Below are positions 38,521 through 64,000 of a stretch of DNA of 64,000 nt, piece after piece (within the stretch, counting starts at the first letter, position 1; each line of letters opens with the position of its first letter). The notes below the pieces were generated by a model that saw only the letters and a list, made by a program, of their open reading frames with translations, had not been told where the DNA came from and made no database searches. A program made the translations under genes and the position numbers. Source of the DNA: Verrucomicrobiia bacterium (GTDB taxonomy: Bacteria; Verrucomicrobiota; Verrucomicrobiia; Verrucomicrobiales; Akkermansiaceae); contig CANHQJ010000002.1 in NCBI GenBank assembly GCA_947462875.1, forward strand, positions 248,001 to 312,000, read 5' to 3'.

Positions 38521-38529
38521 TTGCCACGT

Positions 38530-40995: not shown

Positions 40996-43900
40996 ATGAA
41001 CGCCCCCACCCCCATAGCCAGAGTGCTAAAAGTTTTACTGATCAAATTTTCTAACAATTTTGCCATGAATGCTCCACTCATCCCCACAGTACAAGGATCC
41101 GCGCCCATGACACAGGTGAATTACGATACACAAAGTAGTGACGCCGCAACGGTTTCCGAGAGTCGATTCGCAACGACTTCGCTCCTCTCACGGGCGATGG
41201 CTTTTCTGACCGTGTTGCTGATCGCATTGTTCGCGAGCCCTGCCAAAGCTGACATTGAGACCCTGCCCTCCGGTACCTACATCATCCCGATGGACAATAC
41301 CCTGCAAATCGGTGGCACGTTTAATCTCAAGTCTTATGGTCTGGCCGTTCGTCTTCTGCACGCCAATGTGCCGCTCAAGTGGATCATCAATCCTTCGAAG
41401 GGTAAAGATGGTGTGGACTTCACCGCCTCGGCCTCACGGATCAAACCGACAGCCCTTGCCGCTTCGACACTTTCGTTCCGCGCTGGTCCGCTGGCGGTCT
41501 ATCCGGGTTTCGAGGCACAGGCTCTTGCCGTGATCAACGCCTACGGCAACAATGTGGCGGTATACCAATTGAACGGTGCCGCGAGTGTGCCCGTCTATTC
41601 CAATATTCTCCACAAGCCCAAAGTGGCTGTTTTCAACCAAGGCGGTAATGCCGCCATCCACACTGCCATCCTTGCGGAAGCGGGGCTTACCAGCGGCACC
41701 CACTACCAGGTTTTCACCAACGCCACGCAGATCGGTATTGACACCTGCTTCACTGTGGCTACCGAGCCGCATGCCGGCGTCGAAAAAGTTTCGGCTGCCG
41801 CGACAAGCGCATTGTTGGCATTCCTGCGCTCCGGAGGAAATTTCCTCGGACAGTGCGAAGCCGTGGAGGCCTACACCACGCGCGGGCTGCTGGCGAATTT
41901 CCAATCGAAGCAGGACCTGGGTGGAACGATGCAGTTCGATAATTTCTTCGATCCCATGGCACAGTTTCAAGGGGGCTTGAATGACGAAGGCGGCTCTGTC
42001 GTCTCTTTCAACCTCACTTCAAATCCCGGTTATCGCATCGCTTATTCCTCTGCAAATGGCAGTCGCTACAAGGCCTACGTGGGCAGGGTTACCGGTGTCA
42101 CCACTACCAACGGCGGTTGGGTGCATTACCTCGCCGGTCACAGCTATGACAAAGGTACTGGCGTCGGTGCCATCAATGGCAAACGTATGCTGCTCAACGC
42201 CGTGCTCCGTCCTTCCGACCGCCCCCCGAATTGCGGACTCTCTCTCGCCAGCGACATTGCCGTCACCAAGATTGTCAATAACAGCACGCCCCAGGTCGGC
42301 TCGACTGTGACTTTCACCATCGTCGCCATCAACAATGGTCCGCTCGGTGCCACCGGAGTTGTCGTGAATGACATTTTGCCCACCGGTCTCACTTACGTTT
42401 CCCACACCGTCTCGACAGGCACTTACACTCCCGGCACGGGTGTGTGGTCCATCGGCACGCTTGCGAATGGAGCCAGCCGGACCATGACCATCACGGCTAC
42501 GGTCACTCCCGATGCCATCCCCAGCCGCACCAACACGGCTGTGGTGTCCGGCAATGAGCCTGATTCCAATCCGAACAACAATACCGCCAGTGCCACCGTC
42601 AATCCGCTCTATGCCAACCTCGCGGTGGTGAAAACGGTAAACAACAGCACGCAGACCGTTGGCCAGAATGTGGTCTTCACGATTCTTGTGTCGAACCTCG
42701 GACCCTCGAACGCCACGGGCGTGGTGTTGAATGACTTGCTGCCTGCAGGCCTCGTCTACGTTTCTCACACCGCCAGCGCCGGTATCTACAATCCCGGCAC
42801 CGGTGTCTGGACCATTGGTTCGTTGGCGAACGGAGCCAGCCGCACGCTCACCATCACGGCCACCGTGACCTCGGCCGGTCTGCCACAGGTGACCAACGTC
42901 GCCACCATCACCGGCAATGAGTACGATCCCTTCTTGCAGAACAATACATCTCTGGTGACGGTGACACCCCAGCTCTCCGATCTTGTGGTGATCAAGACCG
43001 TGGACAACGGTGCGCAGCAAGTGGGCAGCAACGTGGTGTTCACCATCGTGGCCCGCAATGACGGCCCCACCGCGAACACGGGCGTGGTGGTCAATGACGC
43101 GCTGCCAGCCGGTTTGAACTACGTTTCCCACACGACCTCCACCGGCACCTACACCCCTGGTTCGGGTGTGTGGACCATTGGCAGTCTGTCCGTGGGCCAG
43201 CAGGAGACCCTCACCATCACCGCCACGGTGACCGGCGCGGCCGTTCCCACGGTGGTCAACACCGCCACCATCGGTGGCAACGTCTTCGACCCGAATCTCT
43301 CCAACAACACCTCCAGCATTTCGGTATCGCCCAATCTGGCTGTGGACCTCGGTATCGTGAAAACGGCCAACAACACCACGCCGTTGCTGGGTGCGAATAT
43401 CACCTTCTCGCTCGTGGTAACCAACTACGGACCGCAAAACGGCACGGGGGTCGTCGCTCAGGACTTGCTGCCCGCGGGCTTGATCTATGTCAGCCACTCC
43501 ACGGCCACTGGCACCTATACCCCCGGAACTGGCGTCTGGGCCATCGGCAATCTGGCCAACGGTGGCACTGCCACGCTCACCATTACCGCTACAGTCACCC
43601 AGGCTGCGGTGCCTAGCGTGACCAACGTCGGCATCGTTTCCGGCAATGAGTCGGATCCGAATCTTACCAACAATACCGATCCGGAAACCATCACGCCGAA
43701 TGTCGTGACGGACCTGCGCATCGTCAAAACGGTCGATAACTCGACTCCGGTGGTCGGCAACAACGTCACCTTCACCGTGGTGGTGCACAATGACGGTCCT
43801 TCGAACGCGACAGGTGTTCTCGCCTATGACTTGCTTCCTCCCGGTTTGGTCTATCTGAGCCACACGACTTCCACCGGTATTTACATCCCCATCACGGGAC

Positions 43901-44343
43901 TCTGGACCATCGGCAACATTCCCAATGGCGGCTCGCGCACCTTGACCATTACCGCTGCTACCACGTTGACCGCAGGTGCCAATGTCATCAACGTGGCCAC
44001 CGTGGAGGGGATCGAAAACGATCCGAACCTGACCAACAACGTTGACCAGGAACCCATCACCATCCGCAGCGGTGCCGACCTCCAGATCGTCAAAACGGTG
44101 AATAAAACGACTCCCAAAATCGGCGAGGTGATCACCTTCACCCTGGTTGCGACCAACAACGGACCGGAAAATGCCAACGGTGTGGTCATTACGGACGAAT
44201 TGCCCATCGGTTTCGCCAATCCGACCAATATCAGCAATGGCGGCACCTTCGCTGGCAACACCATCACCTGGCCACCCTTTAACATGGTCGTCGGGCAGTC
44301 CATCACTCTGACCCTCCAAGCCACCGTAGTTCCTGCCAACTAA
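40996..44343 (+). CDS. Giant secreted protein 1: glutamine-amidotransferase-like domain plus six DUF11 repeats
   Basis: About 1,115 residues. The hydrophobic signal core (MAFLTVLLIALFASPAKA) follows an unusually long polar N-terminus, so the true start (ATG 40996, 41065, 41107 or 41197) is uncertain. Residues about 200-330 look like a class I glutamine-amidotransferase/BPL-N fold: KPKVAVFNQGGNAAIHTAIL, then FLRSGGNFLGQCEAVEAY with a candidate nucleophile Cys287. Six DUF11 repeats follow from 42250 (for example ADLQIVKTVNKTTP and VGSNVVFTIV), each 121-122 residues. There is no sorting tail. Likely a secreted or surface adhesin-like protein; the function of the first domain is inferred. Confidence 0.8.
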   Translation: MNAPTPIARVLKVLLIKFSNNFAMNAPLIPTVQGSAPMTQVNYDTQSSDAATVSESRFATTSLLSRAMAFLTVLLIALFASPAKADIETLPSGTYIIPMDNTLQIGGTFNLKSYGLAVRLLHANVPLKWIINPSKGKDGVDFTASASRIKPTALAASTLSFRAGPLAVYPGFEAQALAVINAYGNNVAVYQLNGAASVPVYSNILHKPKVAVFNQGGNAAIHTAILAEAGLTSGTHYQVFTNATQIGIDTCFTVATEPHAGVEKVSAAATSALLAFLRSGGNFLGQCEAVEAYTTRGLLANFQSKQDLGGTMQFDNFFDPMAQFQGGLNDEGGSVVSFNLTSNPGYRIAYSSANGSRYKAYVGRVTGVTTTNGGWVHYLAGHSYDKGTGVGAINGKRMLLNAVLRPSDRPPNCGLSLASDIAVTKIVNNSTPQVGSTVTFTIVAINNGPLGATGVVVNDILPTGLTYVSHTVSTGTYTPGTGVWSIGTLANGASRTMTITATVTPDAIPSRTNTAVVSGNEPDSNPNNNTASATVNPLYANLAVVKTVNNSTQTVGQNVVFTILVSNLGPSNATGVVLNDLLPAGLVYVSHTASAGIYNPGTGVWTIGSLANGASRTLTITATVTSAGLPQVTNVATITGNEYDPFLQNNTSLVTVTPQLSDLVVIKTVDNGAQQVGSNVVFTIVARNDGPTANTGVVVNDALPAGLNYVSHTTSTGTYTPGSGVWTIGSLSVGQQETLTITATVTGAAVPTVVNTATIGGNVFDPNLSNNTSSISVSPNLAVDLGIVKTANNTTPLLGANITFSLVVTNYGPQNGTGVVAQDLLPAGLIYVSHSTATGTYTPGTGVWAIGNLANGGTATLTITATVTQAAVPSVTNVGIVSGNESDPNLTNNTDPETITPNVVTDLRIVKTVDNSTPVVGNNVTFTVVVHNDGPSNATGVLAYDLLPPGLVYLSHTTSTGIYIPITGLWTIGNIPNGGSRTLTITAATTLTAGANVINVATVEGIENDPNLTNNVDQEPITIRSGADLQIVKTVNKTTPKIGEVITFTLVATNNGPENANGVVITDELPIGFANPTNISNGGTFAGNTITWPPFNMVVGQSITLTLQATVVPAN
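42250..44343 (+). repeat. Tandem DUF11 repeats (six units)
   Basis: Units start at 42250, 42613, 42976, 43342, 43708 and 44074, a period of 363-366 bases that keeps frame. Each has the pattern xDLxIVKTVNNSTPxVG, a GPxNATGVVVxDxLPxGLxYVSHT block, WxIGxLANG and LTITATVT. The DNA copies have diverged clearly, so the array is not a very recent expansion. Confidence 0.9.
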
Positions 44344-44390
44344 GCCCCGAGTTTTTCCCATATTTTTTGCACCAATCCATCCCCACCACC

Positions 44391-47300
44391 ATGAACTCTC
44401 ATTTAGCTCGTGCCCCTCATACCAAGAACCTCCCTCCCGTTCTTGCCGCTGTGCTACGCACCGTCTCACCATTGCGCAAGTGGCTTTCCACGCCTCTGGC
44501 CGTACTAAGCATGCTGTTTTTTGTGGGCTCCCAGGCACAGGCGCTCATCACGCATGTGGATAGCAAAACCGCTATCGTTACCGGTCCGGACACCATCACC
44601 ATTACCAAGCCGACTGGTCTTCAGGTGGGGGACTTGATGATCGCCAACATCAATATCAGAGAGGGGGCCACGACCCCTAGTCCGATGCCGACAGGGTGGG
44701 TGACACGCCTAACATACAATCACGCCACGCCTAACAGATTTGTTTGGATCGGTTATAAAGTGGCCGTCGCCGCCGATCTCTCCGCTACGAATTATTCTTT
44801 CAACTTTGCCGGAACATCGGATCTTGCAGGCGGTATTACGGCTTTCCGCGGTGTTGATGTGGCATCGTCAAACGGTGGCATTCAGGTGACGGGTACACCG
44901 TATGCTGCCGATGACGGCAATCCATTGGCTCCATCATCCATCACCACCCTCAGCGCAAACTCCATGGTGGTGTTCTTGGGACAGGTGCAGGCGATCAACT
45001 TCAACGTTTCAAACTGGTTATTGGGTGGCTCGACGGGGAGCGTCATGACGCAGCTTTACCAGGTCAACCCGACAAGTATCGCAGGTGTCGGCGCTGCGGC
45101 TTTGATCAAAACGACGGCAGGTGCCACGGGATCTGGTTACAAGCTCACGGCGAATGGCCGCAAGGCGGGTGTTTTATTGGCCTTGAAAGAGGGATGCACT
45201 GGCACCACGGGAGGTGATACCGTCGTCTGCGCGGGCAGCACGGCCAACGTCACGCCTGCCACGGGCGGAACCTGGAGCAGCAGTAACTCGGCTGTCGCCA
45301 CTGTCACGAATGGCGGCGTTGTGACTGGTGTCAGCGGTGGCACGGTGACCCTGACCTTTACCGAGACATCCACGGGCTGCCAATACACGCGCACCATGAC
45401 AGTGAATCCGAGGCCTGTGCTGGGTGGTGGGACACTGGGAACGGGCACGAACTCCGTGAATTATGAAATCTACAATAGCGCTCCCGCAGGCGACACCGTG
45501 GACAATATCCCCACGACGGGTGCCTCAAGCACGGGAACGGTTGCTACCATTGGTGTTGCTTCGGTAAGCACTCCAGTTTCGTATCGCTACACGGGCTTTA
45601 TCAATATCGCCACCTCGGGTAGTTACACTTTTTACACAAATTCCGATGATGGCAGCAAGCTTTTCATCAACGGCTCACTGGTAGTGAATAATGATGGTGC
45701 TCATGCGCCGCAAGAAGTGTCAGGCACCGTTTCCCTGTCTCCAGGTTGGTATCCGATTACGGTTCTGTTTTTTAACAACGTGGGTAACGGAACGTTGTCC
45801 GCATCCTATCAGGGACCATCGATTGCCAAGCAGGCTATCCCCTCGAGCATTCTGAGCGCCACGCAGCCTTCGAGCGCCGGTCTCTCTCTCTGTGCTGGAG
45901 CTACCGCCAACGTCACGCCCTCCACGGGCGGCACATGGTCCAGCAGCAACAACGCCATTGCCACTGTCACCAATGCCGGTGTCGTCAGTGGTGTCGCAGC
46001 GGGTTCGGCTACGCTCACCTTTACCGATACTGTGACCGGTTGCAGCAATACGATGACTGTCACCGTCACCGCGGGTCCCTCGCTCGGTGGTGCGACTTCC
46101 ACATGCGTCGGCCAAACGGCCAATGTGACTCCCAACACGGGTGGCACTTGGACGAGCAGCAACAATGCGATTGCCACGGTAACGAATGGCGGCGTGGTAT
46201 CCGGTGTAAGCGCTGGCACGGTGACCCTCACCTTCACCAACACATCCACGGGATGCATCAGCACAGCCAGCTTCACCGTCACCGCTCCGCCCACACTTGG
46301 TGGTGCTTCGGTTGTCTGCCCCGGCCAGACCGCCAATGTCACTCCGGCCACGGGCGGCACCTGGGCCAGCAGCAATCCCGCCATCGCCACTGTGACCAAC
46401 GGCGGCGTTGTGACTGGCGTTAGCGCTGGCACGGTAACCTTGACCTTTACCAATACCACAACGGGATGCTCGAACACTCGCAGCTTCACGGTCAATGCAC
46501 AGGTTGCGCTCGGCGGTGCCAGTTCCACTTGCGTAGGAACCGCAGCGCTGGTCACGCCCAATGTCGGCGGCACATGGGCCAGTAGCAATCCTGCCATAGC
46601 GACAGTCACCAATGGTGGCGTGGTCACCGGTGTCAGTGGTGGCTCGGTCACCCTCAGCTTCACGAACGCGACCACTGGTTGCGTTTCCACCAAGCCATTC
46701 TCTGTCAGCGTCCCCTTCGGCGGCGGCGGCGGTTCCGGCATCGGCGGCGCCACGACGGTTTGCGCCGGTTTCCAAGCCAATGTGACTCCCGCCACGGGTG
46801 GCATCTGGACCACCAGTGATCCCTCCATCGCTACGGTGACGAATGCCGGTGTGGTCACGGGCTTCAGCCCGGGCGTAGTGGTGCTGACCTACACGGAAAC
46901 TCTCTCCGGTTGCGTATCCACAGTGGATTTCACCGTTTACCCGAACGTGACGGCCGGTGGTGCCAACTCGGTTTGCCAAGGCGCGATCGCGAATGTCACT
47001 CCCACCACGAGCGGCACCTGGGTCAGCAGTGACCCCGCCATCGCATTCATCAACAATTCCGGTTTTGTCACCGGTCTTCAGCCCGGCACGGTGACCCTCA
47101 CCTTCACCTCGCTCGGAGGTTGCACGACTTCGAAATCGTTTACCGTTCATCCCAAGCCGATCGCTCTGGGTGCCGCTGCCGTGCAAGTGGGCCAGACGGC
47201 CAATGTGACCCCCGATGCCGGAGGCACATGGACCAGCAGCAATCCCGCCGTGGCCACCGTCACAAATGCCGGTCTGGTCACCGGTTTGACAGAAGGTTCC

Positions 47301-50300
47301 GTCACCCTCACGTTCACCGATTCGGTCACCGGTTGCTCCGGCACCAAGTCGCTCACGGTCATCGACCCCGGTTTCTACAAAAACCAATCCTTCACCGATA
47401 GCGGTGACAAGGTGGACCCCGATCCGGAAAACAACGATGATCCGGAAGTGGTTTATCCGCAGAGCTTCACGGCTCTCATTGTGACGGTGTTCCAGGACCT
47501 GGACGGCGACACCGATGGCGACCAGCCGGTCAATGCCGTTACCATCACCGTCCGCGATAGCCAAGGCACTGTTGTCGCGGTCGTGACCACGGGTGTCGAT
47601 GGTTCCTATACCTTCAACGACCTGCCTCCCGGTTTCTACACGGTCACACAAACGGTGCCTAACGGCAACTTCACCTACAACACGAATCCTGAGTCCGTAT
47701 CGGTCGTGGAAAATGACACGGTGCGTGTGGACTTCGTGAACTCGCAGCTCGGTCAAATTTCCGGCACCATCCTCGCCGATGCGGGCGATGAGCCGATGCC
47801 CAATGTCCTGGTGAGCCTGCTCGATCAAAACGGCAACCCCGTGCTGGATAGCAACAGCCAGCCCATCACCACCACCACCAACAGCGGTGGTTTCTACCTT
47901 TTCGACCGTGTGCCTCCCGGCACCTACCAAGTCCAACAAACGGTTCCCAGCGGCTACACCGCTGTGGACGATGTGGACGGCGGCAATCTCACCAAGAACG
48001 GCGATATCACCCCGATTGTCATTCTGCCCGGCACGGTCATCACCAATCAGGACTTTGTGAACTTCCTGCCTGGCAGCATCACCGGTAACGTCTCCATCGA
48101 TACCGATATCAACCTCACCGGAGATGTGCCCCACGTCGGCGTCTCCGTCTCGCTCTTCCGCCCTGGTTTTGGTCCGGATGGCATCGCCGGCAATACCGAT
48201 GACAACAACGCTCTCAGCTCCCAGCTCACGGATGCATCAGGAAATTTCAGCTTCACCAATCTCACTCCTGGCGACTATCGCGTCGGACAAACGGTTCCCT
48301 CCGGTTACACGGCGGTGGCTGACAGCGATGGTGGCAGCTTAACCGTCGTGGGCGATGTGAACGTGCTCTCGGTGGCAGCCGGTCAGAATGAAATCGCCAA
48401 CTTTGTCAACCAACCACAGACCGACATCGCTGTGATCAAGACTGTCAACAACAGCACTCCCGTGGTCGGCACGAACGTCACTTTCACCGTGGTGGTCACC
48501 AACAACGGTCCGCAAAATGCCGCTGATGTGAAAGTGGATGATGTCGCCCTCGGGATGCTCTACGTGAGCAGCTCTGCCACCAAGGGCTCCTTCGCCAACG
48601 ATCCGGGTGCGCCGTCCAACACGTTTTCGGGTCTTTGGACGGTAGGTGCCCTGAATGTGGGAGAGTCCGCGACTCTCACCGTCGTGGCCACCGTGACACC
48701 AAACGCCATCGTCAGCACTTACAACAACTACGTCAACGCCTATTCGGAACTGGGTGATCCGAACCTCACCAACAACGAGGACGATGTCACGCTCAACCCG
48801 ATTCTCGGCACCATCAGCGGCACGGTGCGCCGCGATACCACCGGTGATAACTTGGGCGATGTCGTCGTGCCAGGAGTCGCAGTCGCTCTTTTGTATCAGA
48901 ACGGCACCCCCGTTCTCGGAGCGAACAACCTGCCTCTCACTGCGGTAACTGATCCCAGTGGCAACTACAGCTTTACCGGTTTGCCTCCCGGCAGCTATCG
49001 TGTGGTGGAAACCGTGCCCACTGGTGATGTGGCCGTCAACGACGTGGATGGAGGAAACAAAGCCATCAACGGTGACGTGACTCCGATTGCCCTCGCCGCA
49101 GGCCAAACCATCGCCAACCAGAACTTTGTCATCGCTCAAGTAGGCAGCATTGCCGGTACCATCACCAATGACACCACCGGCGACGCGGTGGGTGACAGCC
49201 CATTGTCCGGTGTGGTTGTGGTTCTCTTGCAGACCAATGGCAACCCGGTGCTCGATGGCAACGGCGACCCGATTACCACCACGACCAATGCTTCGGGCAA
49301 CTACCTCTTTGCGAACCTTCCCCCTGGCAACTACCGCGTTGCCCACGTGCCACCGGGCGGATTGACCGCAGTGGACGATGTCGATGGCGGCCTGCTCACC
49401 ATCAACGGTGACATCACCCCCATCACGGTTCTGCCCGGCTCAAACGTGACTGGTCAAAACTTCGTGGATTCCGCCCTCGGGACGATCAGCGGCGATGTGC
49501 TCGCGGATGCTGACAATGATGGGGATGGCGATTCCGGCATCTCCGGCGTCACGGTCGCCCTGGTGAACAGCAGCAATGTCACGGTCGCCACCACCACGAC
49601 CAACAGTCTTGGCGGATACATCTTCAGCAATGTTCCTCCCGGCGTCTACACCGTGGTGGAAACACAACCGGCGGGCTATACCAGCGTGTCCGACGTGGAC
49701 GGCGGCAACCTCAACATCAACGGCGATGTGACTCCCATCACGTTGCTGCCCGGAGGCAATGTGACCAACCAGAACTTCGTGGAAATTCTCAATGCCACCA
49801 TCACTGGTATCGTCCAAGCTGATACGAACAATGATGACACGGGCGACACGCCGCTTTCCGGAGTTACCGTTACCCTGCGCGATGGCAGCAACAACGTGGT
49901 CGCCACCACCACGACAGCTCCGAACGGCACCTTCAGTTTCCTCAATGTCGTCCCCGGAACTTACACCGTCGTCGAGACGAACCCAAGCGGTTATGCTTCG
50001 CTTACGCCCGACACCGTGCCCGTGACGCTACTGCCTGGCGGAAGTGCCTTCGTTCCCTTCGTCGATGAGCAACTGGGCAGCATCAGCGGTATCGTGAATG
50101 CCGACACCAACGGGGACAACACCGGTGACACCGTTCTTCCGGGAGTAACCGTAACGTTGCGTGACGGCGGCAACAATGTGATCGCCACCACCACCACCGA
50201 TTCTAACGGATACTACAATTTCCCGAATTTGCCACCGGGTAGCTACACCGTGGTAGAGACCGATCTGCCGAATTACATTTCGCTGACACCGAACAGTGTC

Positions 50301-51185: not shown

Positions 51186-51229
51186 TCACATCCTCCCCAA
51201 CATCAACCGCTAACGATCAATAGTTTCTC

Positions 51230-54200: not shown

Positions 54201-55162
54201 GCCCGCAGTTCACAGGTGTCGTCACCAGCGTCAGCGGTCTTACCCTGAACCTCAGCGGTTCCGCTCCTGGCGTCGATTTCACTCCCGGCAATGGCGAACT
54301 CGAAGCAGCACCTGCATTGTATCGCATCGAAGTGATGAGTGGTCCGCTCAATGGCCATCGTTTCGATGTCCTTACCGGCGGTGTTGCCAGCCTTACCCTG
54401 GAGCCTGAGACGAACGTCTTCACCGGTCCTCCGTTCGGTTCGCTTGACACCGCGGCCGCGGCGGCGACTCTGGCCAGTCAGTTGACCGGCGCACAGATCA
54501 TGTTGGTGAAATATCTGACGGTGGATGAATTGGTGCCGGTCACCTCCGTGAACGCCACAGGGAGCGCCACGACTGCCGACCGTGTCTTGTATAACGACGG
54601 TGTATCCGGTTGGCGCACCTACTGGGCTTACTCGAATGGTGGCGTGCCGCACTGGGCTCTGATCGGTTCCGGTTTTACCGATCGCAAAACCGACGTGGTG
54701 GCTCCTCACCAGGGTTTCTTCATTCACCCCAAAGCGCAGGCGGAAACCATCAGCAGTTACGGTATGGTTCGCCAGAGCAATTTCGCCCAACCGATCAGCA
54801 CATCGTATCCGATGTTTGGCTCGCCCTATCCGATGCACCTCAGCCCCACCCAGATGGCCTACCTGCCTGCGAACTTCACCGGCTCGCGTGATCCGGCCGT
54901 TTCCGACCAGGTGCTGCACTGGACCAGCGACGAGGTTCTGCCAGCGGACAAGGACGGCTATTCCGCCTATTGGCTGAACAAGGTGGGCACTCGCCAGCAA
55001 TGGACCGCTCTGCTCGACACCACCCTGGCCAACCAGAACAGCACAGATTTCATCCGTGCCGGAAGAGCCTATTGGTTCTCGACAACCGCTGCCAAACCCG
55101 GTCATGTGGTGCCTGTGCCCTGGACCTTGCCTGCCAGAATCGACAATGGAGTTGCTCCCTAA
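51230..55162 (+). CDS. Giant secreted protein 3: GEVED domain, three SdrD-type repeats, C-terminal domain
   Basis: 1,310 residues with signal peptide MKKILLTTALYGLSLLLAQS. Domains in order: an N-terminal beta-rich part, a GEVED domain (DYGDAPAAY ... DDEDGVVFP ... GWIDWNNDN ... HGEVEDYQF, about 51,790-52,370), three 102-residue repeats with Ca-binding-like DTNGDGNQD (52,379-53,296), another SdrD-type domain with GSYNFTNLPPGQYTVVQDQP, and a C-terminal part of about 490 residues. The last 330 (from TGVVTSVSG; SGWRTYWAY, HQGFFIHPKA, RAYWFST) recall an uncharacterised verrucomicrobial paralogue family (TIGR02597-like, from memory). Probably surface or extracellular. It lies 44 bases after giant protein 2. 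Confidence 0.82.
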   Translation: MKKILLTTALYGLSLLLAQSQQANPPPPGGSYNPYLIQGFVSPAPMLPAEFNGTGTLTFDVGNTGSSDIVWVTGQEMLVTLSLSYGVPNVANPNDPVQAITAVTGPGAAWFNWEYFPAQKTFRGTQKATIPGGARQTINIAYKVVQNSFQTESYKNGFNTNISPPGYTNPQPTDDDTVAAYTYVQAFDYGDAPAAYAAVSHEVSLVRGPISNLYLAYMALGTVVDPEAANQASSGATADDTNQTGGLAVDDEDGVVFPVMTPGATVNVPVTVTLWDWDPASPTATATVRGWIDWNNDNVYTNTATPGGERIFSLDVSGYLDDLGETAWTGPRTFTIPFPVTVPANATGTYNARFRFGPSVTPTLGLAAHGEVEDYQFQAGAQTGTITGKLYIDTNGDGNQDVGEPNLPNVDVLITDANNNTQTVTTDSNGNWTATVPPGTATVDIVNSDPQYPTGYTQTEGTDPSTVVAVSATSVNAGNDGFYLPGTLTGHLYFDSNGDGNQDAGEPNLPNIDVIITDSNGNTQTVSTDSNGDWTASVPPGSTSIDVNNSDPQFPAGGVQTEGTDPTVVTAVAGVSTNGGIDGFYIPGILTGHLYIDTNGDGNQDVGEPNLPNINVIITDSNGNLQTVVTDSNGDWTANVPAGSTSINVDNSDPDFPPGALQTEGTDPTVVTAVTNTTVNGGVDGFFLPGSISGITQVDTNGDDIGDLTINDVTYRLLNYVGGTPVDNPNIAGNQPYVIVSTNGSYNFTNLPPGQYTVVQDQPAGFISQRDWDSTSDTAGSPADPTNTSPTDNQIPVDLASGESDTGNNFVEFRCPTRFTAWELIHPTAGGTGDNPDGDIFRNLVEYAFCMPPNSGDNTPYCIVPSITQAGNYDLVFNRVLGGKDDTGFFLRYTDVLSTPSNSWIEVDIDSMVNVTVTTNPGGFSEQVRIANIKSLLPGGSERGFYQIALKLDYNLDSTVDVVDYTYVEGWQTVTIEANECETYSTPFLPCPQFTGVVTSVSGLTLNLSGSAPGVDFTPGNGELEAAPALYRIEVMSGPLNGHRFDVLTGGVASLTLEPETNVFTGPPFGSLDTAAAAATLASQLTGAQIMLVKYLTVDELVPVTSVNATGSATTADRVLYNDGVSGWRTYWAYSNGGVPHWALIGSGFTDRKTDVVAPHQGFFIHPKAQAETISSYGMVRQSNFAQPISTSYPMFGSPYPMHLSPTQMAYLPANFTGSRDPAVSDQVLHWTSDEVLPADKDGYSAYWLNKVGTRQQWTALLDTTLANQNSTDFIRAGRAYWFSTTAAKPGHVVPVPWTLPARIDNGVAP
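52379..53296 (+). repeat. Three tandem 306-bp DNTNGDGNQD-type modules
   Basis: Units start at 52379, 52685 and 52991, each exactly 306 bases (102 residues), reading GxLTGHLYIDTNGDGNQD, GEPNLPNxxVxITD, TVxTDSNGxWTAxVPPG and GTDPTVVTAV. The same module, with the same 306-base period, appears twice in giant protein 4 (from 63136 and 63442). Confidence 0.92.
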
Positions 55163-55195
55163 CACCCCCTAACACTAACCAACTACAAATTTTTT

Positions 55196-55903
55196 ATGAA
55201 AATGAAACAAGCACTGATCGGTTTTGGATCACTTCTGTGCGCCTTTTCTTCCCTGGAGGCCCGCACGGTATTCTGGGGTGGCCCTACGGAATCTGTTCTC
55301 TATCAGAGCGATGGTGTCACGCCTGTGGATAGCTCCTTCACGTTCCTTTTGGGTTCCTTCGATGTGGGCTACGATCCGCTCACCAGTCCGATCGAGACAT
55401 GGGCAAGCAACTTCAACACGTTTGACCAAGCCTATTACAACGACACCACGGACTTTTTCAGCAGTTCCGCCAATTTGCTCGATACCGGTCTGTCCGACGG
55501 AGTGAACGCGGATCCCACCTTCGATTTCCGCAACAAGCGTTTGTATTTGTGGGTGTTCGACAGCAATACCTTCAATCCGCTCGTTCCCACCACCACGGAA
55601 TCCGCTTTGTTTACCGGTGATACCTGGGTGCTGCCTCCCGAGGGGAATTGCGGTTGCGGCGAAGACAACCTGCCCTTGGAATTCTACGTCAGCAACATGA
55701 CGGCGGCGGTGATTGGCAACGTGGATCCGGACTACTCCGGCAGCAATCCTCCGATCGACGGTCCCCTGGGGGAATTCACCCGTCCGACGGGAGCCTACGA
55801 TTTCCAAACGCACTCGTTCACGGTTGTGCCTGAGCCATCCGTAGCACTTCTGGGTTCGCTCGGATTGCTCGGTCTCGCCCTGCGCCGCAAGCGCAGTGTG
55901 TGA
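55196..55903 (+). CDS. PEP-CTERM sorting-signal protein
   Basis: 235 residues with signal peptide MKMKQALIGFGSLLCAFSSL and a C-terminal PEP-CTERM tail: VPEP, a hydrophobic segment ALLGSLGLLGLAL, then RRKR. This tail marks proteins for exosortase (EpsH/XrtA-type) cleavage and surface display, usually tied to exopolysaccharide export. The body has a WVFDSNTFNPL block and a short CGCG motif (GNCGCGEDNLP) but no known catalytic domain. It is the last gene of the four-gene surface operon, 33 bases after giant protein 3. No exosortase gene is present in this window. A strong terminator follows. Confidence 0.88.
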   Translation: MKMKQALIGFGSLLCAFSSLEARTVFWGGPTESVLYQSDGVTPVDSSFTFLLGSFDVGYDPLTSPIETWASNFNTFDQAYYNDTTDFFSSSANLLDTGLSDGVNADPTFDFRNKRLYLWVFDSNTFNPLVPTTTESALFTGDTWVLPPEGNCGCGEDNLPLEFYVSNMTAAVIGNVDPDYSGSNPPIDGPLGEFTRPTGAYDFQTHSFTVVPEPSVALLGSLGLLGLALRRKRSV

Positions 55904-55924
55904 TCTAGGATTTCTGTATTTTAC

Positions 55925-55960
55925 ATGGCAACAAGCCTCGTGCTTGTTGCCATTTTTTTT
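55925..55960 (+). terminator. Terminator ending the surface-protein operon
   Basis: ATGGCAACAAGC / GCTTGTTGCCAT, a perfect 12-bp stem with loop CTCGT, followed by eight T residues. It starts 21 bases after the PEP-CTERM gene stop. Confidence 0.96.
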
Positions 55961-56139
55961 GGTGCGCCCGGCAATTTAATTTTTTTGTAATTTTTATTGT
56001 CAATCCTAATAATTATGATATTTCGCGCGCGGCAGTAAAATCCCTCCAATCATTCGACGACACGGACAAGCGTCAAACTGGTCCGATCGAGCGCTTGTTT
56101 TTTACAGTCACAGGAAAAATCATCCAGAGATTGACGCGT
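55961..56139 (+). promoter_or_regulatory. AT-rich promoter and leader of giant protein 4
   Basis: An AT-rich stretch (about 55976-56021) with TTATGATA resembles the region before giant protein 1. Within the leader, ACAAGCG (56066-56072) pairs with CGCTTGT (56092-56098), followed by six T residues, 36 bases before the start. This could act as an attenuator. A convincing -35/-10 pair was not found. Confidence 0.5.
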
Positions 56140-59100
56140 ATGACTGAGGGAAAATCTGTAATTGGCAAGCTTTTCAGCGGTGCCGCTATCGTTCTTGCCA
56201 CCACTGTTATCCAGGCCATTCCAGTGGTCCAGGAATGGTATGTGCCGCAGCCGGAAGCGCAAATCCGGCAGGACTACCTGGTGCTGGCACCGAATACCAA
56301 CACGATCACTGAGTCCGTCATCGCCATCACCGTACCGATTCCCGGCACTCGCATCGTGCTCGACCATTGGGAAAACGGTTACGAGGTCGATTTGAGCAAT
56401 CCGGTGCAGTCCAACACCCAGATCTGGGGAGACGGCAATGATGCCAACGGCAAGCCTCCCGGGTATGCCAACGACCCGGTTTCGTTCAATGCCGGTTCCG
56501 TCATCATCATGCGGAACCAGGTGCCGCTGCCGCGAAACGCCGCTACGATCCTGTTTGACGGTCGCGACCGTTTCGGTTCCAGCAACGCCATCGTGATGAC
56601 ACGTGGTGCCTGGTTCACCACACCCGGGCCGCTGCTTGCCAATTCGGTGGAAGTGCGTGCCGTGCCCGACTGGGGCACCTCTTTCGTCCTCCCTGTGGGT
56701 GAGGATGTGATTTTCCCCACTCCGCTGACAAGTTCGATGTTCGAGCATTGCTCCGCCTACATCATGGCGGCGGCAAACGGCACGGTTGTGACAGTCGATG
56801 TGGATGGAGCGGGGCCTGCCGCTGCCACGAATGTCACGCTGAACCAGGGCGAGTCGCATCTCATCAATGCGGGAATCAAACGGGGCGCCACCATCGTCTC
56901 GACGAAAGGCGTTCAGGTGATGCAGTTCTACGGCGACATAGGGGCCAACTACGAGGCTCGCGGCGCGAACATCCCACCGCTCAACAAGTGGTCGGACCAT
57001 TACTTCGCTCCGGTGGGCACGGCGAGTGACGGCGATGAGACTTATGTCTATCTGTACAACAATGATGCCGCAGCGACGACGGTGAATTTCACCACCAGAC
57101 TGGGTTCCGGATCCATTTCTATCCCGGCAAAAAGCACCTATCAGTATCTGATGCCGATCAATTCCGCGGCGCGATTCACCAGCGTCGGTGGCAAACCCTT
57201 CTGGGGTGTCGGCTTGGTCGGTGCCCGTCCCACTGCCAATAATGTGCACGACTGGGGCTACTCTCTGGTTCCACAGGATTTCCTTTCCACGGAGATCGTG
57301 GTCGGATGGGGTGCGGGCAGTCGTGACGGCACGCAGAATGGCAACCCGGTGTGGATCACCTCGGTGGCGGCCACGCGGCTTTATGTGGATTACAACGGTG
57401 ACCGCCTGGGGCCGAACACCGATCCGAACGGGCGTAAGTATGACGTTGCCATCGATGTGATTCCGCTGGCGGCGACCCGGATTTTCGAGCCGGACAGGGA
57501 CCAGACCGGCATGCGCGTGTACACGCTCGACGGCACGCAACTCACGGGTGCGTGGGGTCAGGATCCCGCGACCGCCGGACCCGGGGAGCCATATCTGGAC
57601 CTGGGCAACACCACGCCCAACCTTCCGGTTCCCGTGTTGAAAAAGACCTCCTCGATTTTTGTGGATAACACGCCGTCCGGTCTGAGTGTCAACGATGTTG
57701 TCCAATACAAGATCACGTTGGACAACCGTTCGCTGTTTTCGCTTTCATCCGTGTCGCTCGTCGATGTACTGCCAGCCGGTGTGACATATGTAGCCAACAG
57801 CACGGTACGCGATGGATCTGCTGTAGCCGATGCGGGCACGACCGCGTTTCCGATGGATGAAGGCGGCCTGGTGGTTCCCATTCTGCAATCGCAATCCTCC
57901 ACAACCATCACCTTCCGGGTCACGGTTAACACAAGCGGCACCAAAGTGAACACGGTTTCGGCGCTCGGGTATCCCGGGGTAGAGGCGAAGGACACGATCA
58001 TCGTGCCCTCCGGCGGTGTTACTTCCTGCACCTTGCGCCTGACCAACAATGTCGGCACGGAGGTGAATTTCCAGCCGGGTGATGGCATTTACGTCACGGT
58101 CACGGATGCCAGCTCGAACACCAACACTTCGGCGATCGAAAGCATTCTCGCCACGGTGAGCAACCCCGCGACGGGTGACATTGAGGTGCTCACGCTTGCG
58201 GAAACCACAGCGAACAGCGGTGTCTTCCGCAACAACGCCGCTTTGCCCTCATCGACATCGGCCGGTTTGGCTGAAACGGACGGTACGTTGAATGTTCAGG
58301 TGGGGAACACGATTTCGGCCACCCATGTCAGCCCGCAATTCGGGCACTCCTGCCCCGATACGGCGACGATCAACGCCGCGAGTCTTCTCAAACAACTCTA
58401 TCTCGATACCGATGGCACTGATGGAGACAACACAGGCGATCTGGATCGGGTTTCGCCCGCCGGTGTGTCGCCCGCGGATACAACGACATCACAGTCTGCT
58501 GTCATCTCAGCTCCCGGTACAACTGCGAATACCTACTCGACAGCGGGCTCTAGCACTTGGACGGTGCCTGCTGGTGTCACCAGCGTCACGGTTGCCGCAT
58601 GGGGTGCTGGTGGTGCGGGTGGGGGAAGCACCGATGCCGGTTTCGGTTCGGCGCGTGGAGGTGCCGGAGGAGGTGGCGGTGCCTATGCGTCTTCCACATT
58701 GAGCGTAACGCCGGGCCAGCAATTGACCATTGTCGTCCCTGGAGAAGTGTCAGGTGCATTGGGTGCCGCAGGGGCCAATGGCAACCCGGCCTTTGTCGGT
58801 CCGGATGGCAATGCCGCTAACGCACTCGTTCGCGCGGCAGGAGGTTCGGGAGGTGCTGGCAACACGAGTGGAGGTGCTCCCACGGGCGGGGCTGGGGGCG
58901 CGGTTGCAAATTCCGTGGGCACCACAAGGGTTGCCGGAGTGAATGGCGGCAATGGTGCGTCAGGTATAGGAATCAGTTCCGGAGCTGGTGGTGCCGGTGC
59001 TCAAGGTGGCGGTGCCGGTGGGGCTATAATCGATTCCCAAGGCACCTCATCTAACGGAAACTCTGGCAATGCTCCGGGTGGAGCCGGTGGCGGTTCGAGA

Positions 59101-62100
59101 ACCTCTCAAAGCAATGGCTCCCGAACAGGAGGTAATGGCGGACCCGGCCGGATTCAGATCAGTTACAGCACCCCGGGTGGCAGTGCCACGTGGACCCAGG
59201 CTCCGGCCTTCGCGGAAACATTCAATGTCACCAGCACCCCCGGAGTCACGGCACATTACACCGTCAGCACCGGCACCATGCCCGGCAGTCCCAACATCAG
59301 CGCGGTGCTGCGCAAGAACGGTGTGGCGTTTGCCACCAGCAGCAGTGTTTCCGCATCGGCTGCGACCGGAGCCGGAGTCTTCACCTTCAGTTTCCCCGCT
59401 CTGGGCAGTGCCGTGAACTTCGCTGCGGGCGATGTGATGTCGCTGGTCATCAGCAACAACCAGTCCGGCGTCACTTTCACCGTGGACTATGACAGCAACA
59501 ACAAACCTTCTCTGGTCACATTGCCGACCGATACGGTCATCCATCTGGACACGCTCGGCATTTACGATGCGCCCTATCCGGGCGGATCGCCGGTGACCGC
59601 CGCGACGGCAGGACAGACCCTGTATGTCCGCGCCATGGCCGCCGATCCCTTCGGCGCCTATGATGTCACCAGCATGCCGTTGGTCATCGATGGTCCGGGC
59701 ACCGCCGGAGACGTCTCCACCACGCTCGGCGCTTCCCAGGTGGTCGCCACCACCGGCAATGCCAAAACCTACGAATACGCGTGGATGACCGGTGCCACGG
59801 AGGGGAATTTCAATATCACCGCGACAGCAAAAGAAGGCTTTGAAAACACGATTTCCTCGGCCAAATCGACGGTGGTCAATATCAGTTCGCTCGATCTGGG
59901 AACCCCCAGCACCACGGAGTTCACCACGGGCAACAACGGTCCCCACACTTTGGTCTATGCCCCGAATGAAACGGTGTTTGCCAGGGTCTCCGACTTGGAT
60001 GAAAACACGAATCCGCTGGTTGCCGAGACCATTCTGGTAACGATCATCGGCAGCGGGGGCGACACCGAGATTGTCACGCTGACCGAAACAGGTCCGAACA
60101 CCGGTATTTTCACGGGTGGCATTCCGGCCAGCAGCACGGTGACCGGCAGCAGTGGCAACGGGACGCTTTATGCCTTGCCGGGTTCGGTTCCGGTGGTGCA
60201 TTACGTTGACAATGATGATGCCACGGACGTCGGATCCGACACAGCCACCATTCCCAACGCCGTGCCCAGCGTTGCGGTTGTGAAAACACTCACGTCTCCC
60301 GCGGATGGACAGATTCTCGTGGGCGAGACCGCTGGTTTCCGCATTCGAGTCACCAACAACGGCAATACCACCTTGAACACCGTGCAGGTGGTTGACACAT
60401 TCGCCAACGCGGAATTGACCTACGTCGCCGCCTCGCCTGCGCCCAGCTCCACGACCTCCAACACGCTCACATGGGCGAACGTGGGTCCGTTGGCAGCGGG
60501 ACAAAGCATTGATCTCAACGTCACTTTCACCGGAGCGGCGGCGGCCAATCCATCGATCAATACGGTGAACGTCACCACGGGTGGCGGGCCGACAGCGAAC
60601 GACACCGAGCCTGTGATCGTCACCCGCCCCGCTGTCACAGTGACAAAAACCCTGCTCAGTCCGGATCCCGGCCCCGCCAACAAGGGTGACCAGGTGGTAT
60701 TCAACATCAGCGTCCAGAATACCGGCACTACCGCTTTACAAACGGTGCCGCTCGAAGATGTCTTCAGTGATGCCTTTTATGAATTTGTGAGTGCTTCGGT
60801 GGCACCCGACGGCGTGGGGGCCGGCAGTTTGCTCTGGAACGACGTCACGGGTGCGGGCATCCTCGCGGTGAACGCCACGTTCCAAGTGTCGGTGACACTG
60901 GAAGCGAAAGGGGCATCTGCCTTCGCTCTCAACACCGCCGCGGTGAATTACGCCATTGACGCTAACGGGGATCCTGTGCCTCCGTCATCGGACGATGCCG
61001 GGGTAGCGACAAGCGCCGCGTCCATTTCGGGCACCGTGTTTGAAGATGAAGGGGTGGTTGGTTTCGGCGGGGACGTGCCCTTGCGCCTGGTCACCGTCCG
61101 ACTTTATACCGATCCTAATGGCGATGGCGATCCGGTGGACGGTGAACTGGTGGGACTGACGATTACAAACGACAATGGTTCCTATGAATTCCTCAACCTG
61201 GCTCTGGGCAATTATGTGATCACCCAGGAAGACTTGCTCGGTTATTTCAGTGTCGCGGACACGGCCGTCACGAATGATAACCTGGTTCCATTGTCCGTGA
61301 CGGCGTTCACAGCCTACCCCAACAACAACTTCCTCGATGACGTGGTGTCGGCTGGGGATTTGGCGTTCATCAGCGGCCAGGTGCGCAACGATAGCGATGG
61401 GGATGGCAACCTTGCTGACGCGGAAGCTGGTCTCGCCGGTGCCGTGGTGACTCTTTTCAGTGATCCGAATGGAGATGGAAATCCATCGGACGGCGTGCCG
61501 TTCGGACTTCCGATCACGACAACATCCACCGGACTTTACACCTTCTCCAATTTGCCTCCGGGCAATTATGTGGTCGTCGAGACGGACCCCGCGGGCTTCG
61601 TCAGTACGGCGGACATCACCAACCCGAATGACAACTGGATCTCTGTCACTCTGGTGGCTGACACCGACTCTTCGGGTAATGATTTCATCGACACCAACAA
61701 CCTCGCCGTGCTTGCCACGGTCGGGGACCGTATCTGGCAGGACACGAACAACAACGGTCTCCGCGATGGAGGGGAGGCCGGCATCGATGGCGTTGTCGTG
61801 CATCTCTATCGATCGGGACAAACACCGGGCGTGGACGCTCCCTATGTGACCACCACCTCGGGCAGCGGCGGTTTCTATGGTTTCGGCAATGTGCCCGCCG
61901 GCCAGTATGTGATTTACCTGCCCGCCGGGAACTTTGGCAGCGGTGTCTTGTTCAATCAGCCGCTTTCCAGCGCTAGCAGCGCGTCCGCGGATGACCTCAT
62001 TGACAACAATGACGATGGTAGCCAGGCGGGCGGAACAGGCACCGCCGTATCCAGCCCGCTCGTGACCCTGAGCACCGGCGAGATCGATCAAACCAAGGAT

Positions 62101-64000
62101 TTCGGATTCGTGCCGAACAGCAGCCTCTCCGCCCTCGATGGTTATCTTTATGTGGATGCGGATGGCGACGGCAACAAGGAAGCCAGCGAGTTTCCTCTTG
62201 AAAACGTGAGGGTATTCATCGACCAGAACAATGACGGGGTGTGGCAAGCGGGCGAACCTTCCGATATCACCGACGGTACCGGCTTCTACTCGATCGGTAA
62301 TCTGCCTCCCGGGGATCATCTCGTCACTGTTGTCACATCGACGATCCCTTCGGGCGTCACGCAAACTGGCGACCCTGATGTGACATTGGATCACAAGAGT
62401 ATTGTCACCCTGCCTGTCGCGCAGACGGTCAGCAACGTCAATTTCGGCTACCAAGGCAACGCGAGCATAGGAGACTATGTCTGGAACGATCGCAACGGCG
62501 ACGGACTGCAAGGTGCCACCGAGGCTCCCCTGGCGGGCGTGCGCGTCTTCATCGATCGTGATAACGACGGAACTTACGACGCGGACGAGCCATTTGCCAC
62601 CACATCCGCCAGCGGCAGCTACTCGCTGGCGGGACTGATCGCCGGCACCTATGGGGTGGCGGTGGACGCCACAACCCTGCCCGCGGGTGTGGCCCAGACC
62701 GCCGATCCCGACGGACCGGTCATGGACGGCATAACCAGCGTTGTGCTGGCTGCCGCGCAAAATTTCGCGCTGGCCGATTTCGGTTACCAAGGCAACTCCG
62801 GCATCGGCGACTACGTCTGGTATGATGTGGATGGCGATGGTGTGCAAGACGCGGGTGAACCCCCGTTGGAAAATGTGAGGGTGTATCTCGACTCCGATGA
62901 CGATGGTGTGTGGGATGCCAACGAACCCTCGGCTCTCACCACCATAGCGGGTGCCTACAGTTTCGATGGGTTGATTCCCGGCACCTTCTTGCTGCGCGTG
63001 GATGCAGCGACTATTCCGGCGGGCATGACCGCCTCCTTCGACCAGGACGGCATCGCGACCGCGAACCGCACGTCCGTGGTGCTGGCGGTTGCGACCACGC
63101 GCACCGACATAGACTTTGGCTACGAAGCCACCGTAGAGTTGGCGGGCAATCTGTATATCGACACCAACGGCAACGGAGATCAGGACGGCGGTGAACCGAA
63201 CCTGCCCGACGTCGATGTGCTGATCACGGACGCTCTGGGCGTCGAACGCACCGTGACGACCGACAGCAACGGCAACTGGTCCGTGATGGTGGTGGCGGGG
63301 AACACCACCGCCGATATTGACGAAACGGATCCCGATTATCCCACCGGCTTCGTCCGGACCGAGGGCAACGACCCGACTGTCACCAACGCGCTCGTGGGCA
63401 CCACGAACAATGGCGGCATCGATGGTTTCTATCAGCCCGCGACCCTGACCGGCCATCTCTATATCGACACCAACGGCGACGGCAATCAAGATGTCGGTGA
63501 ACCAAATCTTGCCAACGTCAATGTACTCATCACCGACGTGAACAGCAATGTGCAAACCGTCACCACCGACAGCAATGGCGACTGGACCGCCATCGTGCCG
63601 CCGGGGAGCACCATCGCGAATATCGATGAATCCGATCCGGAGTATCCCACCGGTTACACTCAAACCGAAGGCACGGATCCGACCAACGTCCTGGCCGTGG
63701 CCGGAACCAGCACCAGTGCGGGCAATGACGGATTTTTCCTGCCCGCATCGATCAAAGGTTTCGTGAGAATCGACACCGATGGCAATGCCACGGGGGATGC
63801 CCCGCAGGTGGGGGTATTGGTCGAATTGTTCACGAACGCCGGTGTTTTGGTTTCATCGGTTCTCACCGGAACTGATGGCAGATTTTCCTTCCCCAACCTT
63901 GCGCCGGGCAGCTACAAAAAGGTGCAAACCGTGCCTAACAACTACATCGCCGTCAACGATGCCGACGGCGGGGACTTCACGGTGATCGGCAATCTGGCTC
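56140..64000 (+). CDS. Giant secreted protein 4 (partial): IgGFc-binding-like, glycine-rich, DUF11 and SdrD domains
   Basis: An open frame of at least 2,620 residues from ATG 56140 that continues past the window end; I read it by eye in this frame and saw no stop. Signal peptide MTEGKSVIGKLFSGAAIVLA ends near TTVIQA. Residues about 30-490 resemble the IgGFc-binding protein N-terminal domain (VMQFYGDIGANYEARGANIP, YLYNNDAAATTV). A DUF11-like unit follows near 57,630, then a glycine-rich domain (58,558-59,166), two DUF11-like units near 60,270-60,960, and from about 61,020 many SdrD-type repeats with DxDGDG motifs, ending in the 306-bp module. Likely an extracellular filament or adhesin; function not assignable. 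Confidence 0.85.
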   Translation, partial: MTEGKSVIGKLFSGAAIVLATTVIQAIPVVQEWYVPQPEAQIRQDYLVLAPNTNTITESVIAITVPIPGTRIVLDHWENGYEVDLSNPVQSNTQIWGDGNDANGKPPGYANDPVSFNAGSVIIMRNQVPLPRNAATILFDGRDRFGSSNAIVMTRGAWFTTPGPLLANSVEVRAVPDWGTSFVLPVGEDVIFPTPLTSSMFEHCSAYIMAAANGTVVTVDVDGAGPAAATNVTLNQGESHLINAGIKRGATIVSTKGVQVMQFYGDIGANYEARGANIPPLNKWSDHYFAPVGTASDGDETYVYLYNNDAAATTVNFTTRLGSGSISIPAKSTYQYLMPINSAARFTSVGGKPFWGVGLVGARPTANNVHDWGYSLVPQDFLSTEIVVGWGAGSRDGTQNGNPVWITSVAATRLYVDYNGDRLGPNTDPNGRKYDVAIDVIPLAATRIFEPDRDQTGMRVYTLDGTQLTGAWGQDPATAGPGEPYLDLGNTTPNLPVPVLKKTSSIFVDNTPSGLSVNDVVQYKITLDNRSLFSLSSVSLVDVLPAGVTYVANSTVRDGSAVADAGTTAFPMDEGGLVVPILQSQSSTTITFRVTVNTSGTKVNTVSALGYPGVEAKDTIIVPSGGVTSCTLRLTNNVGTEVNFQPGDGIYVTVTDASSNTNTSAIESILATVSNPATGDIEVLTLAETTANSGVFRNNAALPSSTSAGLAETDGTLNVQVGNTISATHVSPQFGHSCPDTATINAASLLKQLYLDTDGTDGDNTGDLDRVSPAGVSPADTTTSQSAVISAPGTTANTYSTAGSSTWTVPAGVTSVTVAAWGAGGAGGGSTDAGFGSARGGAGGGGGAYASSTLSVTPGQQLTIVVPGEVSGALGAAGANGNPAFVGPDGNAANALVRAAGGSGGAGNTSGGAPTGGAGGAVANSVGTTRVAGVNGGNGASGIGISSGAGGAGAQGGGAGGAIIDSQGTSSNGNSGNAPGGAGGGSRTSQSNGSRTGGNGGPGRIQISYSTPGGSATWTQAPAFAETFNVTSTPGVTAHYTVSTGTMPGSPNISAVLRKNGVAFATSSSVSASAATGAGVFTFSFPALGSAVNFAAGDVMSLVISNNQSGVTFTVDYDSNNKPSLVTLPTDTVIHLDTLGIYDAPYPGGSPVTAATAGQTLYVRAMAADPFGAYDVTSMPLVIDGPGTAGDVSTTLGASQVVATTGNAKTYEYAWMTGATEGNFNITATAKEGFENTISSAKSTVVNISSLDLGTPSTTEFTTGNNGPHTLVYAPNETVFARVSDLDENTNPLVAETILVTIIGSGGDTEIVTLTETGPNTGIFTGGIPASSTVTGSSGNGTLYALPGSVPVVHYVDNDDATDVGSDTATIPNAVPSVAVVKTLTSPADGQILVGETAGFRIRVTNNGNTTLNTVQVVDTFANAELTYVAASPAPSSTTSNTLTWANVGPLAAGQSIDLNVTFTGAAAANPSINTVNVTTGGGPTANDTEPVIVTRPAVTVTKTLLSPDPGPANKGDQVVFNISVQNTGTTALQTVPLEDVFSDAFYEFVSASVAPDGVGAGSLLWNDVTGAGILAVNATFQVSVTLEAKGASAFALNTAAVNYAIDANGDPVPPSSDDAGVATSAASISGTVFEDEGVVGFGGDVPLRLVTVRLYTDPNGDGDPVDGELVGLTITNDNGSYEFLNLALGNYVITQEDLLGYFSVADTAVTNDNLVPLSVTAFTAYPNNNFLDDVVSAGDLAFISGQVRNDSDGDGNLADAEAGLAGAVVTLFSDPNGDGNPSDGVPFGLPITTTSTGLYTFSNLPPGNYVVVETDPAGFVSTADITNPNDNWISVTLVADTDSSGNDFIDTNNLAVLATVGDRIWQDTNNNGLRDGGEAGIDGVVVHLYRSGQTPGVDAPYVTTTSGSGGFYGFGNVPAGQYVIYLPAGNFGSGVLFNQPLSSASSASADDLIDNNDDGSQAGGTGTAVSSPLVTLSTGEIDQTKDFGFVPNSSLSALDGYLYVDADGDGNKEASEFPLENVRVFIDQNNDGVWQAGEPSDITDGTGFYSIGNLPPGDHLVTVVTSTIPSGVTQTGDPDVTLDHKSIVTLPVAQTVSNVNFGYQGNASIGDYVWNDRNGDGLQGATEAPLAGVRVFIDRDNDGTYDADEPFATTSASGSYSLAGLIAGTYGVAVDATTLPAGVAQTADPDGPVMDGITSVVLAAAQNFALADFGYQGNSGIGDYVWYDVDGDGVQDAGEPPLENVRVYLDSDDDGVWDANEPSALTTIAGAYSFDGLIPGTFLLRVDAATIPAGMTASFDQDGIATANRTSVVLAVATTRTDIDFGYEATVELAGNLYIDTNGNGDQDGGEPNLPDVDVLITDALGVERTVTTDSNGNWSVMVVAGNTTADIDETDPDYPTGFVRTEGNDPTVTNALVGTTNNGGIDGFYQPATLTGHLYIDTNGDGNQDVGEPNLANVNVLITDVNSNVQTVTTDSNGDWTAIVPPGSTIANIDESDPEYPTGYTQTEGTDPTNVLAVAGTSTSAGNDGFFLPASIKGFVRIDTDGNATGDAPQVGVLVELFTNAGVLVSSVLTGTDGRFSFPNLAPGSYKKVQTVPNNYIAVNDADGGDFTVIGNLA
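58558..59166 (+). other. Glycine-rich domain inside giant protein 4
   Basis: About 203 residues starting WTVPAGVTSVTVAAWGAGGA, then GGAGGGGGAYA, TPGQQLTIVVP and many GG/GA/GN steps (GGSGGAGNTSGG, GGAGAQGGGAGG) and ending GGNGGPGRIQISY. This is the pattern of glycine-rich domains in bacterial surface proteins and phage tail or receptor-binding proteins, with a WxVPxGVxxVxV lead strand. Confidence 0.8.
61018..63990 (+). repeat. SdrD-type repeats in giant protein 4, including two 306-bp modules
   Basis: Repeats carry the DxDxDG calcium-binding style motif, for example IGDYVWNDRNGDGLQG, GDYVWYDVDGDGVQDAGEPPL, NLYIDTNGNGDQDGGEPNLP and HLYIDTNGDGNQDVGEPNLA. Two adjacent copies (63136 and 63442) have the exact 306-base period seen in giant protein 3. 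The array continues beyond the window end. Confidence 0.85.

Follow-up and report, generated by a model that had tools for sequence, protein, structure and literature searches.

We describe a locus of six genes, most of them for very long secreted proteins, that begins at position 40,996 of a 64,000-nucleotide window of an Akkermansiaceae genome (the window is the whole stretch of DNA analysed, contig C2:248001-312000; the genome comprises 3.95 Mb in 39 contigs). On balance, we favour reading it as a divided surface-fibre locus of the fibrillar-adhesin type, whose pieces would dock to one another outside the cell; that the proteins touch, adhere and assemble in this way is inferred from domain content, from the layout of homologous loci and from the co-occurrence of terminal modules.

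Five long plus-strand frames occupy the window from position 40,927 to its edge, and the genome sequence beyond that edge supplied the rest of gene 5 (Table 1). Genes 1 to 4 are separated by 47, 44 and 33 bp and gene 5 follows after a further 236 bp, beyond the only strong terminator of the locus, as a separate transcription unit; other terminator-like sites occur at chance level. A consensus scan found no convincing promoter at the locus, so we call genes 1 to 4 an operon on their spacing and terminator only. Their order is P1N-DUF11 (gene 1), P2N-Big_2-PA14-SdrD-PNVM (gene 2), SYNPYL-GEVED-SdrD-tail (gene 3) and PEP4 (gene 4), followed past the terminator by HEAD-Gly-DUF11-SdrD-PNVM (gene 5) and the companion gene COMP7. 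Pfam models matched at the locus are DUF11, Big_2, PA14, GEVED, SdrD_B, Gly_rich_2, PEP-CTERM and IgGFc_binding, and PA14 in gene 2 and the IgGFc_binding-like head of gene 5 are candidate adhesive domains. Every chain has its own signal-like N-terminus and the frames stay open for hundreds to thousands of codons. The genome has ten DUF11 domains, every one of them in this locus, and long paralogous blocks link genes 2 and 5 (908 aa at 43%) and genes 3 and 5 (469 aa at 43%). An Rfam search of 40.7-56.2 kb gave zero matches. Downstream of COMP7 lie other kinds of gene, including a TPM-domain protein, a DUF1573 protein and, identified by eye, a Maf-like protein; two DUF1573 paralogues that share 39% identity over 350 aa bracket the whole locus in inverted orientation (window 38521-39579, plus strand; L002:12304-13380, minus strand).

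An earlier note on this DNA had described secreted genes 33-47 bases apart that end at one strong terminator and are built of DUF11, Ig-like, PA14, GEVED, SdrD, glycine-rich, PEP-CTERM and IgGFc-like modules, and the gaps, the terminator and the Pfam matches bear this out. Its fourth giant, given as at least 2,620 aa and as its own unit, is indeed separate and is now complete at 2,915 aa. The lack of an anchor that it reported for three giants holds and extends to the complete gene 5, so that no recognisable anchor is found on any of the four giants and the anchor motif is confined to gene 4. The five genes of its set are all present, but the set was incomplete, as COMP7 belongs to it as the sixth.

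Table 1 Features of the locus, in window positions unless a contig (C2) or locus (L002) prefix is given.
Feature	Position	Strand	Description	Basis
Gene 1	40996-44343	+	ORF opens at 40927; about 1,115 aa, secreted	ORF, translation
P1N domain	41251-42249	+	Gene 1, N-terminal
Five complete DUF11 domains	42250-44070	+	Gene 1	Pfam DUF11 E=1e-192
Sixth DUF11, truncated	44074-44340	+	Gene 1, C-terminal end
Gene 2	44391-51185	+	About 2,264 aa	ORF, Pfam
P2N	44541-45200	+	Gene 2, N-terminal
Big_2 and PA14	45207-47360	+	Gene 2
Orphan DUF11 C-terminal strand DPGFYKNQSFTDSGDKVDPDPENNDDPEVVYPQ	47364-47462	+	Mid-gene 2, between Ig-like and SdrD blocks
SdrD_B/DUF11/SdrD_B		+	Gene 2, between orphan strand and PNVM
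PNVM module	50751-51182	+	Gene 2, C-terminal; also ends gene 5
Gene 3	51230-55162	+	1,310 aa	ORF, Pfam
SYNPYL module	51311-51829	+	Gene 3, N-terminal
GEVED	52040-52381	+	Gene 3
SdrD_B	52382-53665	+	Gene 3
TSP3-like/TIGR02597-like tail	53672-55159	+	Gene 3, C-terminal, last 496 aa
Gene 4	55196-55903	+	235 aa, PEP-CTERM protein (PEP4 family)	ORF, Pfam
Intrinsic terminator	55925-55953	+	Closes genes 1-4; 12-bp stem, loop of 5, then T run
Gene 5	56140-64000, on to C2:312887	+	2,915 aa; 887 bp lie beyond the window
IgGFc-like HEAD	56218-57609	+	Gene 5, N-terminal	IgGFc_binding E=4.7e-9
Glycine-rich region	58522-59199	+	Gene 5; then DUF11, SdrD_B
PNVM module	L002:8553-8984		Gene 5, C-terminal; outside window
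COMP7 (sixth gene)	C2:313004-313903		299 aa, follows gene 5; outside window

A module map of some 30 loci puts these genes into context. Relatives in other genera and families have one gene of 2,400-6,400 aa that carries both a gene 5-type head and a gene 3-type tail, laid out as head, DUF11, SdrD_B repeats and tail on one chain (families f1, f2, f12 and f28). PEP4 is adjacent to the tail and usually a COMP7 relative is present too, in the order giant, PEP-CTERM gene, COMP7 relative. The gene 3-type tail is matched strongly in other genera, where it stands at the end of frames as long as 6,400 aa, and many of these start with a head. Here, head and tail are separated, on gene 5 and gene 3 respectively, and the relatives' chain is thus broken over these two genes, with gene 5 positioned between gene 4 and COMP7. 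In the head tree (rooted at the midpoint, for drawing only), the head of gene 5 is sister (97/91) to six single-chain giants, and the single-chain giant of genome G358 falls outside this group; nested among single-chain giants in this way, the split looks derived and is probably the derived state. The tail of gene 3 sits on a long branch (1.32).

The relatives' loci also vary among themselves. At L040 (G024:C1), two tandem copies of the PEP4-COMP7 pair lie next to the giant, and at L081-L082 (G176:C22) a frame of 7,424 aa bears a head but has neither a tail nor a PEP-CTERM neighbour. In four loci (L031, L032, L038 and L039, of genomes G097, G116, G039 and G013), a gene identified by eye as vitamin K epoxide reductase-like follows the companion, which hints that the cassette involves disulfide formation; beside COMP7 here no such gene was seen.

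The anchor of the proposed fibre would be supplied by gene 4. Its PEP-CTERM match (PF07589) scores 21.5 bits, over the cut-off of 20.7, its C-terminus has the PEP motif, hydrophobic stretch and basic end, and the genome encodes one exosortase (PF09721, E=6.6e-46, at C4:34939-35721). Gene 4 starts 33 bp past the tail-bearing gene 3, and, over the loci compared, a PEP4 homologue directly adjoins the gene with the tail in 19 of 19 cases and adjoins none of the nine tail-less head-bearing giants with enough flanking sequence (Fisher p=1.4e-7, a guide only, because the loci are related and the counts are not phylogenetically independent). This coupling lends support, for gene 3 in particular, to the idea of an anchored base, and it is most simply read as a sign that the tail would be what meets the anchored PEP-CTERM protein. 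The tail itself, at 22 bits against a curated cut-off of 50 (E=6.8e-5), is by this score only a remote relative of TIGR02597. COMP7 is homologous to gene 4 (34% over 71 aa) but has no PEP-CTERM tail.

A second set of connections comes from two end modules. PNVM is a C-terminal module of 144 aa common to genes 2 and 5, which are 73% identical over their last 150 aa, and SYNPYL opens gene 3; the genome holds two PNVM ends and two SYNPYL starts, the second SYNPYL start belonging to a protein on contig C10. That protein has 609 aa and a module 83% identical (L050:16022-16558, minus strand, equal to G000:C10:106021-106557), and stands alone, with no adjacent PNVM gene, PEP4 or tail. A scan of genome contigs for PNVM, short in reach because it used strict peptide patterns, found one locus (L046), in a Kiritimatiellae MAG, with a module 66% identical, and the gene that starts 18 bp after the PNVM gene there opens with SYNPYL. 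Among 388 genomes of the phylum, SYNPYL occurs in two (our genome and G378) and PNVM in the same two, with a chance probability of about 1.3e-5. Searching 72 genomes of the family of G378 added only G512, which by position and frame length is the same genome as the L046 MAG. The pair is thus known from three genomes in all, two of them of one genus, and its genes are adjacent in three of three.

Both modules are conserved (PNVM at 55-73%, SYNPYL at 48-83%) while the sequence between them differs. As they co-occur and adjoin despite this difference in the remainder of the proteins, we regard PNVM and SYNPYL as a candidate docking pair. An AlphaFold model of the two modules, built as an L046 read-through with three stops read as residues, had a pLDDT of 44 and a pTM of 0.34. 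Neither module was found on plasmids, nor PNVM in viral contigs; PNVM-like ends are presumably also present in Bacteroidota surface proteins. That PNVM and SYNPYL might be divergent DUF11 domains found no support in profile comparisons.

Judged by its closest matches, the locus is a mosaic of a verrucomicrobial cassette (head, tail, PEP4 and companion) and parts that match family f39: the P1N-DUF11 protein is 44% identical to one in genome G234, and the PNVM, SYNPYL and GEVED parts are 66-69% identical to L046, both of that family. P1N and PNVM occur in none of the other genomes of its own family (117-145 searched, nine congeners included), and P2N has zero relatives in 81 genomes of f39. The exact gene order was not found in the nine congeners, which were tested for a full-length tail, P1N and PNVM, so the whole locus is a mosaic private to this genome. 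The AlphaFold model of P1N (from four sequences) has a pLDDT of 47, the first 120 residues alone being reasonable, and a Foldseek search with it returned nothing at E <0.2. P1N, here and in L094 and L095, has an invariant C166, H174 and C202 (A4 numbering), and its GGNFLxQC motif resembles a nucleophile elbow. A class I glutamine-amidotransferase-like enzyme, suggested by the form GGNFLGQC, stays a guess, as searches of Pfam, NCBIfam and PDB sequences turned up nothing in its favour.

We propose that the source cassette encoded a single giant secreted chain together with a companion and a PEP-CTERM protein anchored by exosortase, and that the giant became divided here, gene 5 keeping the IgGFc-like head and stalk and gene 3 keeping stalk and conserved tail. 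Exosortase would fix gene 4 to the envelope, and the tail of gene 3 would most likely dock on gene 4, given their strict genomic coupling. The PNVM ends of genes 2 and 5 would most likely dock on the SYNPYL start of gene 3, standing in for the covalent link of the relatives, and gene 3 would thereby become a common base for either outer chain, gene 2 with its PA14 and Ig-like parts or gene 5 with its head. Gene 1 is proposed to be a stalk protein that arrived together with foreign modules and had its last DUF11 cut by the insertion of the 5' half of gene 2. Weighing against the proposal are the low scores of the AlphaFold model of PNVM with SYNPYL, the SYNPYL protein that stands alone on C10, the small number of genomes with the pair, the long branch of the gene 3 tail, the position of gene 5 behind a terminator and the relatedness of the loci in the PEP4 counts. 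The suggestion of the earlier note that the set builds one structure on a PEP-CTERM base fares differently from gene to gene: a joint structure is likely where genes 3, 4 and 5 and the companion are concerned, for which the relatives' fused chain beside a gene 4 homologue and the exosortase speak; plausible for gene 2, linked through the PNVM/SYNPYL pair; and weak for gene 1, linked by adjacency and the split DUF11. Conservation of gene order, which that note had offered as a check, is divided in the same manner, the exact order being absent from nine congeners and the order of the core cassette being kept in other genera and families.

How the cut in gene 1 is read bears on the alternatives. 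The sixth DUF11 of gene 1 stops at position 87 of 114 of the model (88 of 121 in our own), and joining to it the orphan strand from gene 2 raises the score from 64.4 to 85.4 bits, the top value among control windows outside gene 1, level with a genuine DUF11 tail (85.1 bits) and modestly over the next unrelated window (81.3 bits). DUF11 (CLIPPER) is an isopeptide domain that forms a Lys-Asn bond with the help of an Asp (PMC12617251); Lys, Asp and Asn (K6, D40 and N94) are invariant across the six complete DUF11 domains aligned, and after the split gene 1 retains Lys and Asp while an Asn (YKN) is carried by gene 2. The division is most likely the scar of the insertion that created the 5' half of gene 2. 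A repeat search and inspection by eye found no flanking repeats of the kind that would mark such an event between these two genes as recent. A working covalent joint, in which the DUF11 of gene 1 captures the strand of gene 2 and bonds the two proteins, is possible in principle, and the divided residues and the joined score are what it would predict; yet a recent gene break would give the same picture, the strand lies in the middle of the gene 2 protein and the arrangement is seen in one genome only, and we consider such a joint very improbable. We give as little credence to a segmented giant that rejoins extracellularly through both PNVM-SYNPYL docking and a covalent split-DUF11 link between gene products 1 and 2.

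The same cut, together with the long paralogous blocks in genes 2, 3 and 5 and the congeners without the arrangement, would also follow from neutral break-up, in which repeat-rich giant genes recombined into independent secreted proteins or fragments, separately used or decaying, and share their ends by duplication rather than docking. This account sits poorly with chains that each have a signal-like N-terminus and a frame open over so many codons, with end modules that are conserved while the intervening proteins differ, and with the strict co-occurrence of PNVM and SYNPYL, and we judge it rather unlikely. Less probable again is that the giants form the fibres of a matrix and bind nothing specifically, made for flocculation or biofilm with a PepA-like gene 4. 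The best NCBIfam match of gene 4 is indeed floc_PepA (NF033554, E=3.6e-7), but its 30.2 bits against a cut-off of 80 amount to low-level similarity, and the candidate ligand modules, PA14 and the IgGFc-like head, argue against fibres of this kind. A divided fibre whose pieces dock outside the cell stays our preferred reading.

To our knowledge, no attachment or assembly logic has been worked out for the giant proteins of this superphylum. A C-terminal end coupled to one PEP-CTERM protein offers a direct anchoring hypothesis for the whole giant family, and the split version names candidate joints, PNVM/SYNPYL and the split DUF11; a natural catcher/tag pair, if true, would be of wide practical interest.

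The protein class itself is already known, as fibrillar adhesins and giant DUF11 proteins, and giant proteins occur commonly across this superphylum (PMC11573180). Fibrillar adhesins likewise are very long secreted chains with tandem Ig-like or isopeptide-type stalk domains, among them DUF11 and SdrD_B, and candidate binding domains (PMC9210967, PMC12617251), but here the anchor belongs to a small, separate PEP-CTERM protein and to none of the giant chains, and several genes that have end modules in common each encode part of the chain. The single-chain cassette, from head to TIGR02597-like tail, has a homologous head, stalk, tail, PEP-CTERM protein and companion, yet is built on one polypeptide where this genome uses genes 5 and 3, the former between gene 4 and the companion. 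The PNVM/SYNPYL pair of the Kiritimatiellae genus (L046/G512 and G378) shares the end modules (66-69% in L046, about 50% in G378) and the same two-gene order, 18-38 bp apart, whereas outside the end module its first protein is unlike the one here, and the pair was not seen to have a tail, PEP4 or head as a neighbour. In the P1N-DUF11 proteins of G234, of the same family f39 as G378, the N-terminal domain (44%) is also followed by DUF11 repeats, but 15 of these stand in an intact frame of 2,735 aa, and gene 1 is cut in its sixth. Engineered catcher/tag pairs also divide an isopeptide domain so that the reactive residues lie on two chains (PMC5487036, PMC6539128); there the split was engineered, and here it would be a natural one, as read from the sequence.
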